From the NCBI GenBank assembly GCA_016213895.1, contig JACQZJ010000013.1, positions 1 through 38,451 on the forward strand: DNA of 38,451 nucleotides, written 5' to 3'. The position numbers and the translations under genes are program-made. Origin of the DNA: Planctomycetota bacterium (GTDB lineage: Bacteria > Planctomycetota > B15-G4 > JADJEK01). Positions 1,841 through 9,342 of the stretch are shown here, in pieces. The notes beneath the pieces were generated by a model that did no database searches, was not told the DNA's origin, and saw only the letters and a program-made list of their open reading frames with translations. Every line of letters starts with the position of its first letter. Positions within the stretch are counted from its first letter, which is position 1.

Positions 1841-1906
1841 TCGCGACATGTCGCGATGCCTGACCGCGACATGTCGCGAAAAGTCACGGGTACGCGACAT
1901 CTCGCG
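1841..1906. promoter_or_regulatory. Three CGCG-N6-CGCG palindromes: candidate upstream activating sites
   Basis: Site A, 1841-1856, is the perfect 16-base palindrome TCGCGACATGTCGCGA. Site B, 1865-1878, is CGCGACATGTCGCG. Site C, 1893-1906, is CGCGACATCTCGCG with one central change. Their centres lie about 107, 130 and 158 bases upstream of the predicted start of the peroxiredoxin operon, the usual range for enhancer sites of sigma54 activators. The same motif recurs before the ferritin-like gene, the rubrerythrin gene and the activator gene. The cluster sits between the rubredoxin stop and the peroxiredoxin promoter. Binding by the NorR-like protein is inference. Confidence 0.72.
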
Positions 1907-2938: not shown

Positions 2939-3277
2939 CTACCCCCACTTGCCCTCGCCCACGTGACTCTGCATCTCCGTCATCGAGAGCTTCATGATCT
3001 GGTAGGTGTGCTCGAGGCACTTGCGGTAGACGTCCGCGCAGCCGGGATCGAGGTCGTCGGCGAGGCCGTCCTTGCAGGCGCGCTCAATGCGGCGGCCCAG
3101 GTCCACGAGCAGACAGAGCACGGCGTTGCCGTGGCGCGAGCGCTCCACGGCATCGGCCGCGTCGTCGTCCAGGAGCGCAAAACGCGCGGCGGCCGCCGCG
3201 CACTTGGGGCAGCGCTGCGGCGGACCGTCGCCGTCGTGAATGAACCCGCAGACTCCGCACTTCCACTTCTTGTTCAT
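2939..3277 (-). CDS. Small rubredoxin-like zinc-ribbon/iron protein with helical C-terminus
   Basis: 112 aa. The N-terminal 30 residues form a minimal rubredoxin-like knuckle pair, CGVCGF (Cys7, Cys10) and CPKCA (Cys23, Cys26), of the short type seen at the end of rubrerythrins. The remaining 80 residues are predicted helical and contain two isolated Cys and no evident diiron motif. The family is not recognised beyond the rubredoxin-like domain. It starts 72 bases after the ferritin-like gene stop and is probably read from the same sigma54 promoter. It might shuttle electrons to the neighbouring diiron proteins; this is inference. GAGGTG precedes the ATG. An 8-bp GC-rich hairpin (3292-3312) lies just upstream of the ribosome-binding site. 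Confidence 0.75.
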   Translation of the reverse strand: MNKKWKCGVCGFIHDGDGPPQRCPKCAAAAARFALLDDDAADAVERSRHGNAVLCLLVDLGRRIERACKDGLADDLDPGCADVYRKCLEHTYQIMKLSMTEMQSHVGEGKWG

Positions 3278-3349: not shown

Positions 3350-3793
3350 TCAAGCGCCGGACGAGCGGGACATGCCCTTCTTGATCTGCCCGAGCTGATC
3401 GAGCAGGCCGTCGTGCTTCTTCTCGTCGTTCAGGAGGTAGTCGAGCATCTGCTTGTGGATCGGCGACCATGCCTCCTCCCTCAGCTCCTCGGCGAGCTTG
3501 AGCGTCTGCTTCTCCATCTTGTCGTGCAGCTCGATCTTCTCCCAGATGTTCGCCAGGTCCTCGCGGGACACGTTCACGTTTTCCCAGGTCACGCTGTCGA
3601 CGAGGAACTGCTGCACGCGGTGGTGCATGAGCGAGTCGTGGCGGATGATCTCCATGATCATGCGGACGAAGGGGTTGGTGGTCTCCTCCATGATCTCCGC
3701 GGTCATGTTCATGCTCTCGCGCTCGATCCCTTGCCAGCGGCGCAGGGTGTTCACGAACTTCTCGACGCGCTCGGGTCCTGACTTCTTGGGCAT
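3350..3793 (-). CDS. Ferritin-like four-helix protein (candidate diiron)
   Basis: 147 aa, strongly helical. Carboxylate/His pairs occur in the order expected of a ferritin-like bundle: ERESMNMTAEIMEE, then EIIRHDSLMHHRVQQF, then EKIELHDKMEK, then NDEKKHDGLLDQL. This E...ExxH...E...ExxH spacing suggests a diiron site, but the exact ligands cannot be fixed by eye, and the protein is not a standard ferritin or rubrerythrin. A sigma54 promoter lies at 3888-3903, with candidate activator sites at 3979-3992 and 4031-4044. It is the gene directly divergent from the NorR-like activator, the position held by norV in E. coli, so it is probably the primary target. No clear Shine-Dalgarno other than GAGGAGAG close to the ATG. 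Confidence 0.75.
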   Translation of the reverse strand: MPKKSGPERVEKFVNTLRRWQGIERESMNMTAEIMEETTNPFVRMIMEIIRHDSLMHHRVQQFLVDSVTWENVNVSREDLANIWEKIELHDKMEKQTLKLAEELREEAWSPIHKQMLDYLLNDEKKHDGLLDQLGQIKKGMSRSSGA

Positions 3794-3887: not shown

Positions 3888-3903
3888 CGCAGATGGCGTG
3901 CCA
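3888..3903 (-). promoter_or_regulatory. Sigma54 (-24/-12) promoter of the ferritin-like gene
   Basis: The minus strand reads TGGCACGCCATCTGCG. The -24 block TGGCACG is perfect and the GC of the -12 block is correctly spaced (10 of 12). The predicted start is near 3877, with a leader of about 84 bases. An imperfect inverted repeat AGTGT-N6-ACACT (3913-3928) lies between promoter and activator sites; its factor is unknown. Confidence 0.75.
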
Positions 3904-3978
3904 GGTACACGAAGTGTTCTAAGACACTGGAGCAAGAAGATTTAGACGAAGGCACCTACGAAACCACCCGGGAACGAT

Positions 3979-4044
3979 CGCGATAGTTGGCGATGCGGGT
4001 TCTTGGAATCCCGCGATCGAGCGGCTATACCGCGATATTTCGCG
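3979..4044. promoter_or_regulatory. Candidate activator sites between the ferritin-like gene and norR
   Basis: 3979-3992 is CGCGATAGTTGGCG (one mismatch in the second arm) and 4031-4044 is CGCGATATTTCGCG (perfect arms). Their centres are about 108 and 160 bases upstream of the predicted ferritin-like gene start, matching the first and third sites of the peroxiredoxin operon (107 and 158) within two bases. The second site overlaps the expected transcription start of the activator gene, which would allow autorepression as described for E. coli NorR. Confidence 0.65.
4003..4031 (+). promoter_or_regulatory. Possible sigma70-type promoter of the NorR-like gene
   Basis: TTGGAA (4003-4008) and TATACC (4026-4031) are spaced 17 bases apart; each matches 4 of 6 consensus positions. 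The predicted start is near 4038, inside the palindrome at 4031-4044 and about 30 bases before the GTG start codon. Confidence 0.4.
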
Positions 4045-4069
4045 AACCGACCTTGGCCTCGGAGGAGCC

Positions 4070-5659
4070 GTGCCAACGAAGCTGCGGAACATCCTCGACT
4101 TGACGCGGGACGTGCAGGCCGCCGCGGGTATGGGCGCCACGGTCGAACAAGTGAACGACCTGCTCGGCCGCGCCGTGGAGGCGCTCGGCAGGCTCGTGCC
4201 CTTCGACCTCGCCACGATCATGGAACTCGAGGGCGAGGAGCTGGCGGTGCGCGTGGCGCGCGGCGCGCTCGCCGGCCCGGCCGTGGAGCGCCACCGCCTG
4301 CGGCTGCAGGACTTTCCCGCCATCCAGAAGCTCCTGAGGGACGACCACGCGCGCGCCTTCCGGGAGAGCGACCATCGCGACGGCGACGGCGACGCGTTCG
4401 ACGGCGTGCTCGACCTTCCCCACGGCCACTCGTGCATGGTCGTGCCGCTGCGCGTGAAGTCCGACGCGCTCGGCATCATGACCTTCGACCGCCGCGTGTG
4501 CCAGGAGTACGCGCCGGCCGTGGTGGAGCTGGCCGACGTGTTCGGCAAGCTGCTCGCCGTGGCCATGAGCTACGGCGAGCAGTCCGCGCTCTTGAAGCGG
4601 CTCGGCGACCAGCTCGTGGAGCAGAACCGCCTGCTCGGCGAACGCGTCGAGGGCCGGGTAGAGGCCTGCAGCATGCTGGAGGCGTGCCGCAGCCCGGCCA
4701 TGCTGCAGGTGGTGCATCTCGCGCGGCAGGTGGCCGCCGCAGGCACGCCGGTGCTCGTCACCGGCGAGACCGGCACGGGCAAGGAGGTGCTGGCCAACGC
4801 GATCCACGGCTGGAGCCCGCGCGCCGGCCGCCCCCTGGTCGGCATCAACTGCGCCGCGCTGCCGCCGAACCTGATCGAAAGCGAGCTGTTCGGCCACGTG
4901 AAGGGCGCCTTCAGCGGCGCCACGGCCCAGCGCATGGGACGCTTCCAGGCGGCGAACAGCGGCACCCTCTTCCTCGACGAGATCGGCGAGCTGCCCGTCG
5001 ACCTGCAGGCGAAGATCCTGCGCGCGCTGCAGGAAGGCTGTTTCGAGCCCGTGGGCAGCGACCGCACCGTGCGCGTGGACGTGCGCCTCATCGCGGCCAC
5101 CAACCTCGACCTGCTCGCGGCCGTGGCGAGCGGCCGCTTCCGCCAGGATCTCTACTACCGCCTGGCGGTCTTCCCCATCCACGTGCCGCCGCTGCGCAAC
5201 CGGCGCGAGGACGTCGCGGGCATCGCCGCGAGCTTCCTCGCGTCGCTCGCGCGCCGCACCGGCCGCGGGCCGTGGCGGCTTTCCGAGCGCGCGTTGCGCT
5301 GGCTCGAGGAGCAGGAGTGGCGCGGCAACGTGCGCGAGCTGGTCAACGCGCTGGAGCGCGCCACGATCCTGAGCCGCGGAGCGGAGCTGGATTTGGCCGC
5401 GAGCGCGGACCTCGCGGCCGGCGCGCCGCCGCTCTGCGCGCCCGCGCCGGACGCGGCTGAGGGGCCGCTTCCGACGCTCGAGGAGATGGAGCGCCGCCAC
5501 ATCCGGCGTGCGCTCGAGCTGACCGGCGGCAGGCTCTACGGGCCGGCGGGCTCGGCCCGCCTGCTCGGCATCAACCCGAGCACCCTGAGAAGCCGCATGC
5601 AGAAGCTCGGGCTCGGCCGCGCCCGCGACCACCGGGCTACCGGTCGAACCAGTTCCTGA
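4070..5659 (+). CDS. norR: NorR-like sigma54-dependent transcriptional activator (GAF-AAA+-Fis HTH)
   Basis: 529 aa. The N-terminal GAF domain (about 20-170) aligns with E. coli NorR: DAFDG (D108, D111), HSC (H120, C122) and MTFD (D140) match NorR Asp96, Asp99, His111, Cys113 and Asp131, residues assigned to the NO-binding mononuclear iron site. The AAA+ domain (about 205-440) has Walker A GETGTGKE (232-239), Walker B LFLDEIGE (300-307), and a sigma54-contacting loop GAFSGA (279-284) where GAFTGA is usual. A Fis-type helix-turn-helix is at 470-515. The GTG start has GGAGGA six bases before it. It is divergent from the ferritin-like gene and overlaps the end of sdhB by 23 bases, convergently. 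Likely role: NO- or iron-responsive activation of the three sigma54 units upstream. The canonical targets norVW are absent from the window. Confidence 0.85.
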   Translation: MPTKLRNILDLTRDVQAAAGMGATVEQVNDLLGRAVEALGRLVPFDLATIMELEGEELAVRVARGALAGPAVERHRLRLQDFPAIQKLLRDDHARAFRESDHRDGDGDAFDGVLDLPHGHSCMVVPLRVKSDALGIMTFDRRVCQEYAPAVVELADVFGKLLAVAMSYGEQSALLKRLGDQLVEQNRLLGERVEGRVEACSMLEACRSPAMLQVVHLARQVAAAGTPVLVTGETGTGKEVLANAIHGWSPRAGRPLVGINCAALPPNLIESELFGHVKGAFSGATAQRMGRFQAANSGTLFLDEIGELPVDLQAKILRALQEGCFEPVGSDRTVRVDVRLIAATNLDLLAAVASGRFRQDLYYRLAVFPIHVPPLRNRREDVAGIAASFLASLARRTGRGPWRLSERALRWLEEQEWRGNVRELVNALERATILSRGAELDLAASADLAAGAPPLCAPAPDAAEGPLPTLEEMERRHIRRALELTGGRLYGPAGSARLLGINPSTLRSRMQKLGLGRARDHRATGRTSS

Positions 5660-6488
5660 GCGCGTGCACGGTGGCGTGCCGGCCGGCGAGCGCGATGGCC
5701 CGCGTCAGCGGGATCTCCTTGGGGCAGACCTTTACGCAGTTCTGGGCGTTGCCGCAGTTCTGGATGCCTCCCTCGGAGACCAGGGCGTCGAGCCGCTCGC
5801 TCGCGCTCATCTTGCCGATGGGATTGGCGTTGAACAGCTCCACCTGGGCGATGGCGTGTGCTCCCATGAAGGAGCGGTCGTAGGCCGCGAAGCAGCGCGC
5901 GCGGAACGTCTCGGCGCTCTCGTCGCGGCCGCGCGCCAGCTCGATCTTCAGGAACTGCGGGCAGGCCTCGAGGCAGCAGCCGCAGCTCATGCACTTGCTG
6001 TAGAGGTAGGCCATCTGCTGCTCGTCCTGCGAGCGCCGCGGGCCGGACCCCATGTGGTGGTAGCTGTCCACCGGCACCCACGCCTTGACCTTGTGCAGGG
6101 CGGCGAAGATGCGCGTGCGGTCGACGAGGAGGTCGCGCAGCACCGGGAACTTGGTCATCGGCCTGAGCTCGATCTCGCCGGGCCGATCCGCGAGCAGGCG
6201 ATCGACCAGGGCGGTGCACGCCTGGCGCACGCGGCCGTTGATGATCATGGTGCACGCGCCGCACACTTCCTCGAGGCAGTTGCACTCCCAGACGACCGGC
6301 GCGACGCGCTTGCCCTCGACCGTCCGCGCCTGCTCGGCGATGCGCTGCAGCACGCTGATGACGTTCATGTCGGGCTCGTGGGCCACGCGGTGGCTCTCCC
6401 AGTACGCCTCGGCGCCCGGTCGGTCCTGGCGCAGGACGCGCACCAAGAAGGAGCGCGCGCCGCCCTCCGCTCGCGCCGCCCCGTTCAT
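5637..6488 (-). CDS. sdhB: Succinate dehydrogenase/fumarate reductase iron-sulfur subunit
   Basis: 283 aa subunit that carries electrons from the flavoprotein to the membrane cytochrome of respiratory complex II. An N-terminal plant-type ferredoxin domain holds the 2Fe-2S cysteines in CNCLEEVCGAC; the C-terminal bacterial-type ferredoxin domain holds CMSCGCCLEACP and CGNAQNCVKVCP for the 4Fe-4S and 3Fe-4S clusters. The start ATG at 6488 overlaps the sdhA stop as ATGA, so translation is coupled. The gene order C-A-B and the long, divergent sequence match the B. subtilis/Wolinella-type enzyme with a single di-heme cytochrome subunit. Confidence 0.95.
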   Translation of the reverse strand: MNGAARAEGGARSFLVRVLRQDRPGAEAYWESHRVAHEPDMNVISVLQRIAEQARTVEGKRVAPVVWECNCLEEVCGACTMIINGRVRQACTALVDRLLADRPGEIELRPMTKFPVLRDLLVDRTRIFAALHKVKAWVPVDSYHHMGSGPRRSQDEQQMAYLYSKCMSCGCCLEACPQFLKIELARGRDESAETFRARCFAAYDRSFMGAHAIAQVELFNANPIGKMSASERLDALVSEGGIQNCGNAQNCVKVCPKEIPLTRAIALAGRHATVHALRNWFDR

Positions 6489-8455
6489 GGCTTCCTCCCC
6501 GCCGCCTGGCGCGCCTGGCGCTCGGCAAAGGACTGCTCGATAGCGTCGCCGCCGACCACGCCGTAGAGGCGCGGCCGCGGCGCGATGAGCGACGTGTCGA
6601 CCTGCTCGTAGGCGAGTCGCGGTTCGCCGTCCTGGTCGAGCGTGGCCACGGTCGTCTTCAGCCAGCGCGCGTTGTTCTGTTCGAAGAGGTCGCACCACTC
6701 TTCCGCCTGGCGGCGGCGCTCGGCCGGATCCGCGGCGTCCACCCCAGGCATCTCGAACTCGGGCTTGTAGTGCGCGCCGCGGCACTCGTCGCGCGCCAGC
6801 GCGCCCTTGAGGATGGTCTTCGCCAGCGGGAACATGTCCTGCAGGGCGCGCACGAACACGACGTTCTGATTGGCCCAGTCGCCGCGGTCGCTGGGTGCGG
6901 CGCGCCGCGCCTCTTCCTCCAGCTCGCCCACGCGGCCGTAGGCCTGCTCCAACTCGCCGTTGTGGCGCACCACCGTGGCCACGCGCGTCATCAGCTCGCC
7001 GAGTTCGGCCTGCACGCGGTACGGGTTCGGCCCGGAGTCGGCGCGCGCGAGGATCTCGCGGAAGCGCGCCTCGTGGCGGCGGCGCTCGGCGGCGAAGAGC
7101 GCCGCGGACTGCTCGGCCGCCAGGCCGTTGGGCAGGGAGTGGACGTAGCTCACGACGCCGCCCGCCACGGACAGGCCGCTGAAGATGCACGCGACCAGCG
7201 AGTTGGCGCCGAGCCGGTTGGCGCCGTGGTACTGGTAGTCGCACTCGCCGATGGCGAAGACGCCCGGCAGGTTGGTCTGCTGGGTGCGCGGCGAGCAGAT
7301 GTTGAGGCCGCCCTCCGCGGTGCGCTCGAAGTCGCACCACAGCCCGCCCATCGAGTAGTGCACCGCGGGGAAGATGCGCATGGCGGCGGCGCGCGGGTCG
7401 ACCCCCTGGAACTTCTCGTAGATCTCCAGGATCCCGGCGAGCTTGGCGTCGAGCATCTCGCGCGGCAGGTGGCTCACGTCGAGGTAGACGCACATGCGCC
7501 CGCGGTCGACGCTGAGGCCTTCCTTGACGCACACGTTGAAGATCTCGCGCGTGGCGATATCGCGCGGCACCAGGTTGCCGTACTTCGGGTAGCGGTCCTC
7601 GAGGAAGTAGAGGCGCTCCTTCTCCGGGATGTCGCCCGGCGGCCGCGGGTCCTGCGGCTCGCGCGGCACCCACACCCGGCCGCCCTCGCCGCGCGCGCTC
7701 TCGCTGATCAGGCGCAGCTTGTCGGCGCCCGGGATGGCCGTGGGATGCACCTGCACGAACTCGCCGTTCGCGTAGCTCGCGCCCGCCTGAAAGACGCGGC
7801 TCACGGCGCTGCCGGTGCACGCCACGGAGTTGGTCGAGCGGCCAAAGATCCCGCCGCAGCCGCCGCTGGCGATGATGACCGCGTCCGCCGGGATGGCGCG
7901 GATTTCCATGGTCACCAGGTCCTGCGCCACGCAGCCGCGGCAGCGGCCGGACGAGTCCTGCACCAGGCCGAGGAAATCCCACGATTCGTACTTGGTGACG
8001 TGGCCGCTCGCCTGCCAGCGCCGCACCTGCTCGTCGAGGGCGTAGAGGAGCTGCTGGCCGGTCGTTGCGCCGGCGAAGGCGGTGCGCTTGAAGAGCGTGC
8101 CGCCGAAGCGCCGTTGGTCGCGGAACCCCTCCGGCGTGCGGTTGAACGTGACCCCGAGCCGGTCCATGAGGTCGATGATCTGCGGCGCCCAGTAGACCAG
8201 CTCCTTGACCGGCGGCTGGTTCTGCAGGAAGTCGCCGCCGTAGAGCGTGTCGTCCAGGTGGCGCCACTCGCTGTCGCCGAGCTGCCGCGTCAGGTCGTTG
8301 CAGCTGTTGATCCCCCCCTGGGCGCAGGCGCTGTGCGAGCGCTTGACGCGCGTCAGGCTCATCAAGCTGACGTCCGCGTCCAGCTCCGCCAGCTTCATGC
8401 ACGCCGCCAGGCCGGCGAGCCCGCCGCCGACGACCAAGACGCGCTTCTTCGCCAT
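6485..8455 (-). CDS. sdhA: Succinate dehydrogenase/fumarate reductase flavoprotein subunit
   Basis: 656 aa catalytic subunit that oxidises succinate to fumarate (or the reverse). Dinucleotide-binding motif VVGGGLAG near the N-terminus; SHSACAQGGIN contains the His that carries covalent FAD; the substrate-site motifs GEFVQVHPTAI, SESARGEGG, HYSMGG and HGANRLGANSL are all present. The ATG at 8455 follows the sdhC stop as TGATG and is the family start; the reading frame stays open further upstream only as antisense-like noise inside sdhC. The 3' end overlaps sdhB by four bases. No missing key residue was seen. Confidence 0.96.
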   Translation of the reverse strand: MAKKRVLVVGGGLAGLAACMKLAELDADVSLMSLTRVKRSHSACAQGGINSCNDLTRQLGDSEWRHLDDTLYGGDFLQNQPPVKELVYWAPQIIDLMDRLGVTFNRTPEGFRDQRRFGGTLFKRTAFAGATTGQQLLYALDEQVRRWQASGHVTKYESWDFLGLVQDSSGRCRGCVAQDLVTMEIRAIPADAVIIASGGCGGIFGRSTNSVACTGSAVSRVFQAGASYANGEFVQVHPTAIPGADKLRLISESARGEGGRVWVPREPQDPRPPGDIPEKERLYFLEDRYPKYGNLVPRDIATREIFNVCVKEGLSVDRGRMCVYLDVSHLPREMLDAKLAGILEIYEKFQGVDPRAAAMRIFPAVHYSMGGLWCDFERTAEGGLNICSPRTQQTNLPGVFAIGECDYQYHGANRLGANSLVACIFSGLSVAGGVVSYVHSLPNGLAAEQSAALFAAERRRHEARFREILARADSGPNPYRVQAELGELMTRVATVVRHNGELEQAYGRVGELEEEARRAAPSDRGDWANQNVVFVRALQDMFPLAKTILKGALARDECRGAHYKPEFEMPGVDAADPAERRRQAEEWCDLFEQNNARWLKTTVATLDQDGEPRLAYEQVDTSLIAPRPRLYGVVGGDAIEQSFAERQARQAAGRKP

Positions 8456-9201
8456 CAGCGGCCCTCCTCGAGCGGCGCGGCCGGCGCTGTCTGGGCGCTT
8501 CCCGCCGCCGTGTCCTGGGCCTGCATGCCGGCCAGGGCGCCGAGCCCCATGAGCGCCACGATGCACCCGAAGCCGAGGATGAGGATGTTGGCCGTGCGCT
8601 GCGAGCGCGGGCTGGTCCACACGCCCCAGGTGATCCCCATGGTCCACAGGCCGTGCGTGAAGTGGTAGACGCAGGCGAGCACGCCGACGAGGTAGATCGC
8701 GAAGACGAGGGGCGAGGCCTGGATCGCCGTTGCCGCGGTGAGCACGTTCTCCGGGTCGAAGCGCGCTCCGCCGAGCGGCAAGGCGACGTGCTCGGTCCAC
8801 CAAGGGAAGTGGAACCAGCCGTGCATGTGCAGGACGTGCCAGAGGATGAAGGGGAAGGCGATCGCCCCGGTCCAGCGCTGCAGGGTGTAGCGCCAGTTGG
8901 CCGCGTAAGGGTAGAGGCGGACGTTGCGCTTGCCGCGCGAGACGATGATCAGGCCGATGACGCCGTGGAACAGGATGGGCAGGAAGCTGAAAGCCCACTC
9001 GAGCGGCACGAGCGTGGTCGCCCCGAGGGAGTGGATCTGGCCCACGCGGCGCTGGAACAGCTCAGGACCGTCGAGGATGCTCGCGTTCGTCGCCAGGTGG
9101 AAGCAGAGGAACCCGCCGATGGGCAGGAGCCCGGTCAGGGAGTGCCAGCGGCGCAGGACGAACTCGTTCTGCCCGAAGACCGAGGCGGCGGAGTTGTTCA
9201 T
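8455..9201 (-). CDS. sdhC: Succinate dehydrogenase cytochrome b558 subunit
   Basis: 248 aa membrane anchor with about five hydrophobic segments, the size and layout of single-subunit di-heme cytochrome b558 anchors. Conserved heme-ligand histidines are visible in FLCFHLATNA, ILFHGVIGL, LWHVLHMHGW and YHFTHGLW. The start at 9201 (MNNSAASVFGQ) is preferred over an ATG 78 bases upstream because homology begins there; the ribosome-binding site is weak. It is the first gene of the sdhCAB operon. The C-terminal 25 residues (after GMQAQD) are Ala/Pro-rich and probably disordered. Confidence 0.92.
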   Translation of the reverse strand: MNNSAASVFGQNEFVLRRWHSLTGLLPIGGFLCFHLATNASILDGPELFQRRVGQIHSLGATTLVPLEWAFSFLPILFHGVIGLIIVSRGKRNVRLYPYAANWRYTLQRWTGAIAFPFILWHVLHMHGWFHFPWWTEHVALPLGGARFDPENVLTAATAIQASPLVFAIYLVGVLACVYHFTHGLWTMGITWGVWTSPRSQRTANILILGFGCIVALMGLGALAGMQAQDTAAGSAQTAPAAPLEEGR

Positions 9202-9342
9202 TTCCAGGTTCTGCGGACTCCAGCGCGGCCAGGCGCCCCGGCCGCGGCGAGCTGCATGCCCGGCGGGCCGCGCGTGCATGCTAGCAGCCCGCCGGGGAAG
9301 AGCGCCGCGATTCGCGCGCGCGGCCGGGGAGAGCCGCGGCGC

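Follow-up and report, generated by a model that had tools for sequence, protein, structure and literature searches.

The palindromes clustered at 1841-1907 of the window (the whole 38,451-nucleotide stretch of Planctomycetota DNA analyzed here) and in a second array at 3978-4045 are most probably enhancer sites (upstream activator sequences) of a NorR-related sigma54 activator (EBP) encoded at 4070-5659 on the plus strand. Judging from sequence, EBP dimers would bind CGA-N4-TCG palindromes through a Fis-type helix-turn-helix (HTH) and the tandem sites would assemble a higher EBP oligomer. The GAF domain would sense an oxidant (or NO), probably at a NorR-like non-haem iron center, and the AAA+ ring, once released, would remodel the sigma54 RNA polymerase at boxes 1752-1767 and 3888-3903, switching on the prx-sod and the rubrerythrin-side genes. 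The least certain step is the signal: that it is an oxidant acting at the GAF iron is, taken alone, about an even call. The second array adjoins the start of the EBP gene, so autoregulation of the EBP through these sites would be possible.

Oxidant defence is usually regarded as being under the control of regulators such as OxyR, PerR or SoxR. The arrangement described here is also present in other Planctomycetes and many Myxobacteria, which suggests that oxidant defence can be induced in a way not yet described. If true, a dedicated sigma54 activator would imply a different kind of control, ATP-driven and all-or-none, and since many Myxococcota encode it, the idea could be tested in a laboratory species.

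Two palindrome arrays and the defence genes

The array of the prx-sod genes is composed of three palindromes, which carry no strand: the promoter-proximal palindrome 1 (TCGCGACATGTCGCGA, 1841-1856), palindrome 2 (CCGCGACATGTCGCGA, 1864-1879) and palindrome 3 (ACGCGACATCTCGCGG, 1892-1907). The first-pass annotation had described three palindromes, the second 23 bases after the first and the third, with one change, after a further 28 bases, and all of these were found. The 14-mer CGCGACATGTCGCG is exact at 1842-1855 and 1865-1878 and bears one change at 1893-1906, and a single further match with up to two mismatches is present in the window (4031-4044; 0.97 expected). The 16-mer at 1841-1856 is one of three perfect palindromes in the window, the other two being plain GC runs. 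The motif, originally written as CGCG-N6-CGCG, is better described as TCGCGA-N4-TCGCGA, with the general core CGA-N4-TCG.

The array lies 74-140 bases from, and on the upstream side of, a sigma54 -24/-12 box on the minus strand (CGGCACGCAAACTGCT, 1752-1767; 10/12, a score reached by 2% of shuffles). This box precedes the genes, also on the minus strand, for a 2-Cys peroxiredoxin (1054-1650; AhpC-TSA and 1-cysPrx_C domain matches) and an Fe/Mn superoxide dismutase (426-1028; domain matches), and the gene order suggests that prx-sod is one operon. As previously proposed, the three sites form an array that precedes a sigma54 promoter and is close to a gene for a NorR-like activator, and orthologs keep both the arrays and the sigma54 box.

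A second array, missed in the first-pass annotation, is located upstream of another minus-strand sigma54 box (TGGCACGCCATCTGCG, 3888-3903; 10/12, with 1.5% of shuffles as good) and adjoins the EBP gene. It contains site A (TCGCGATAGTTGGCGA, 3978-3993), an imperfect palindrome, and site B (CCGCGATATTTCGCGA, 4030-4045), both without strand; a third site is doubtful, the candidate being a weak, possibly degenerate middle copy, likewise strandless (CCGCGATCGAGCGGCT, 4011-4026), which is nearly identical in the sister genome. In both arrays the box is 74 or 75 bases from the nearest site, both boxes point into defence genes, and rpoN is present in the genome.

The rubrerythrin-side genes, all on the minus strand, comprise a rubredoxin (1910-2071; name read from the sequence), a rubrerythrin (2093-2668; domain matches), a 112-aa protein with a rubrerythrin-type rubredoxin domain (2939-3277; domain matches) and a 147-aa protein (3350-3793), probably the first gene behind the second array. 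The latter had no Pfam match, is 95% conserved in the sister genome and is all helical in a single-sequence model, with which a PDB fold search gave no significant match. Gene order suggests that rubrerythrin and rubredoxin are read from the 3888 box, although the 270-base gap upstream of rubrerythrin itself, in which no motif array was seen, counts against it. On the other side of the EBP gene, and convergent with it, genes of the succinate dehydrogenase/fumarate reductase type (read from the sequence) occupy the minus strand at ~5664-9279, in the same order as in the sister genome.

The activator and its relation to NorR

The targets of E. coli NorR are NO reductases. The EBP contains a GAF domain, an AAA+ sigma54-activation domain (PF00158, 227 bits) with a GAFTGA-type loop (GAFSGA in the alignment) and a C-terminal Fis-type HTH (HTH_8, 29 bits vs a cut-off of 22) with the recognition helix PSTLRSR; the HTH alone had no match in the PDB. 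The AAA+ domain, the Fis-type HTH, the tandem sites before a sigma54 promoter and rpoN are features shared with the bEBP class. The best NCBIfam model is NorR, and the curated NorR model PRK05022 scored 371 bits, below its cut-off of 476. In the tree, the supported clade of orthologs does not include E. coli NorR, whose long branch is of unsure placement.

The likeness to the NorR/norVW system of E. coli is considerable. In both cases a GAF-AAA-HTH activator is encoded near its target, and three tandem palindromes with similar spacing, 23 and 28 bases here and 21 and 24 bases in E. coli norV (recomputed from the E. coli sequence), lie upstream of a sigma54 box; the likeness of the triple arrangement to norV had been noticed in the first-pass annotation. 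NorR dimers on tandem palindromes form a higher oligomer (PMC2941729). Conversely, the EBP operator is CGA-N4-TCG and that of NorR is GT-N7-AC, the recognition helices differ, and oxidant-defence genes occur beside the EBP in place of NO reductase genes. The contrast between the two operators, already pointed out for the prx array, holds in both arrays: GT-N7-AC occurs once, as a chance-like copy at 1883, between the prx sites and not at all in the second array, compared with three copies in E. coli norV. As the EBP shows no NO-reductase targets and no tandem GT-N7-AC, scores below the NorR cut-off and is missing Arg75, although it keeps the His-x-Cys and Asp iron residues, it is not NorR proper, and a NorR in the functional sense is not supported by the peroxiredoxin, SOD, rubrerythrin, Dps and cytochrome genes found opposite the EBP gene in the loci read. 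In its way of working, with a tandem enhancer, a ring controlled by the GAF domain and sigma54, the system would nevertheless resemble NorR without being filed as such.

In a rather unlikely version of this scheme, the sites and the EBP are the same, and the EBP truly senses NO, as NorR does, inducing oxidant-defence enzymes as part of the defence against nitrosative stress. This would agree with the NorR model being the best match and with the GAF domain of the EBP family, in which the NorR residues Asp96, His111, Cys113 and Asp131 are invariant and Asp99 is mostly kept. Against it, Arg75, proposed to be the ligand that NO displaces in NorR (PMC2941729), is never kept, and no NO reductase, Hmp or Hcp was found opposite the EBP gene in any locus read. 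The missing Arg75 also indicates that the sensing step of an oxidant-responsive EBP may differ from that of NorR.

The HTH of the formate hydrogenlyase activator FhlA (LGLKRTTLLSRMKRLGI) is broadly similar in type, and its half-site letters ATTTCG/CGAAAT resemble CGATATTTCG. FhlA has another sensory part and other targets, and the palindromes of the present locus do not match its UAS, CATTTCGTACGAAATG, in which the half-sites are in reverse order and differently spaced (PMC4987338). In the open-licence literature no publication was found that matched the motif, a sigma54 peroxide regulator or NorR-like peroxide regulators, which is weak evidence of absence, and the text of a Desulfovibrio sigma54 regulome paper, whose motif logos are figures, names no such operator. 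A parallel is found in Myxococcus xanthus, where an NtrC-like activator (MXAN_1565) and AhpC (MXAN_1564) appear in the literature under adjacent locus numbers, and the Myxococcota orthologs of the EBP examined here mostly lie opposite a peroxiredoxin gene. MXAN_1565 is a candidate ortholog; no published operator or regulon was found for it.

Recurrence in relatives and the recognition helix

In the sister genome (L142, same contig as L047) the EBP is 91% identical, the three prx sites are kept at unchanged spacing (palindrome 1 with one change, palindrome 3 identical) and so are the two EBP-side sites, site B being identical. Sites and boxes are 92% identical between both genomes vs 70-72% for the remaining intergenic bases. 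In L048, with an EBP 74% identical, the EBP gene is divergent from prx-sod, and three sites and a sigma54 box lie between them. Neither a palindrome array nor a sigma54 box was seen beside the EBP in two other loci (L143 and L144, EBP 59-62% identical); if these EBPs have operators, they must lie elsewhere.

Orthologs of the EBP were detected in Planctomycetota, in a small related group and in Myxococcota, where 73 of 195 genomes encode one at a cut-off of E <= 1e-105. L047 and L051 are labelled Planctomycetota, and the genomes taken as the phylum of L057, a Phycisphaerae MAG, again include the sister contig, so a planctomycete lineage is the most likely source of the window, even if an individual MAG can be mislabelled. 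At most of the Myxococcota loci examined, a peroxiredoxin lies opposite the EBP, the sites are of the CACCGA type and the sigma54 box is strong. More distant orthologs follow the same plan with other genes, and the gene opposite encodes a peroxiredoxin in L146, L166, L162, L163 and L169, a Dps-type ferritin in L145 and L173 (the name Dps, within the ferritin family, is a reading from sequence), a rubrerythrin in L161, a SOD in L209 and a multihaem cytochrome in L179; for L230 the sequence suggests a di-haem cytochrome c peroxidase. A sigma54 box of at least 10/12 was present in 21 of 26 loci; in L167 and L172 the sites are there but a good box is not. In both L162 and L163, a sigma54-like box with a perfect -24 element (TGGCACG) and TTC for TGC at -12 is located ~137 bases before the EBP start.

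Upstream of the EBP gene the common core CGA-N4-TCG had 7 to 19 times the density that it has in EBP coding DNA. The outer bases vary by lineage, so that the one fixed new operator sequence suggested at first gives way to a family-wide motif, of which the window holds one version. EBPs with the helix TL-R-SR occur with CGCGA and those with TL-Q-SR with CACCGA/TAACGA; at position -2, C is found in 20/22 half-sites of the former and A in 36/46 of the latter (nominal Fisher p 2e-9, relatedness ignored), the three outer bases having been left out of site finding. In a tree from which the HTH was omitted, R and Q contrast independently in two places, and in each the operator changes to match. Two such pairs are too few for significance, which takes six or more, so the association between helix and operator is a strong lead and no proof; it offers a rule of recognition, open to direct test, for the Fis-type HTH, a common type whose operators are mostly unknown. 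Arrays of CGA-N4-TCG were also seen upstream of EBPs of a sister clade (A, S, D or T at the helix position) in L025, L028, L029, L030 and L032; an AhpD-like carboxymuconolactone decarboxylase, as read from the sequence, is encoded opposite the EBP in L025 and L032. Extension of the rule to all EBPs was dropped, as a cluster was present in just 6 of 106 other loci.

It is very improbable that the palindromes are operators of another factor, such as a peroxide- or iron-responsive repressor, with the EBP acting elsewhere. Palindromic operators of many regulators are similar and the EBP sites are predicted ones; but the outer bases track the recognition helix of the EBP itself, which ties the sites to the EBP, the sites adjoin the EBP gene in many lineages, and both arrays are at enhancer distance from the sigma54 boxes rather than over promoters. 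Even less credible is the idea that the repeats act as RNA, as a terminator or otherwise, at the rubredoxin 3' end: they do start right after the stop codon of the rubredoxin gene (1910, minus strand), but no terminator-like site was found at the prx array, the palindromes at 3978-4045 are not behind a gene end, and in orthologs the palindromes sit between divergent genes.

Returning to the EBP as the factor that would bind these sites, a broader proposal is put forward tentatively, at slightly less than even confidence: sigma54 activators with an iron-GAF domain may form a family of their own that spans phyla and acts as the master switch by which Planctomycetes and Myxobacteria turn on their defence against peroxide and superoxide, through a CGA-N4-TCG operator whose outer bases would be set mainly by one helix residue (Arg for C:G and Gln for A:T at -2).

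Motif counts across the genome

The genome (5.50 Mb in 218 contigs, 69% GC) contains two exact copies of CGCGACATGTCGCG, both in the prx array. Allowing two mismatches, 116 copies were counted genome-wide vs 119 for the control, and TCGCGA-N4-TCGCGA with one mismatch gave 35 vs 43, both at chance level. An exact-motif count had been suggested earlier, and the idea was to be refuted if the motif proved widespread within genes, as often as GC content predicts; single loosened copies do occur at the chance rate and mean nothing elsewhere in the genome, while the array stands. Extension of the regulon by single motif matches was dropped on account of this rate. A one-mismatch match (L004) was discarded as a target since it sits inside a gene reading as asparaginyl-tRNA synthetase, and no target could be tied to another match, L212, which has a site and a sigma54 box.

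The unusual feature is the clustering of the sites. Two GCGA-N4-TCGC elements separated by 6-36 bases occur genome-wide in the prx array alone (sites 1 and 2, and sites 2 and 3), with none in the control; together with the array and spacing kept in the sister genome and comparable arrays in other lineages, this leaves almost no credit to the idea of chance palindromes in a genome of 69% GC, in spite of the chance-like rate of loosened single sites.
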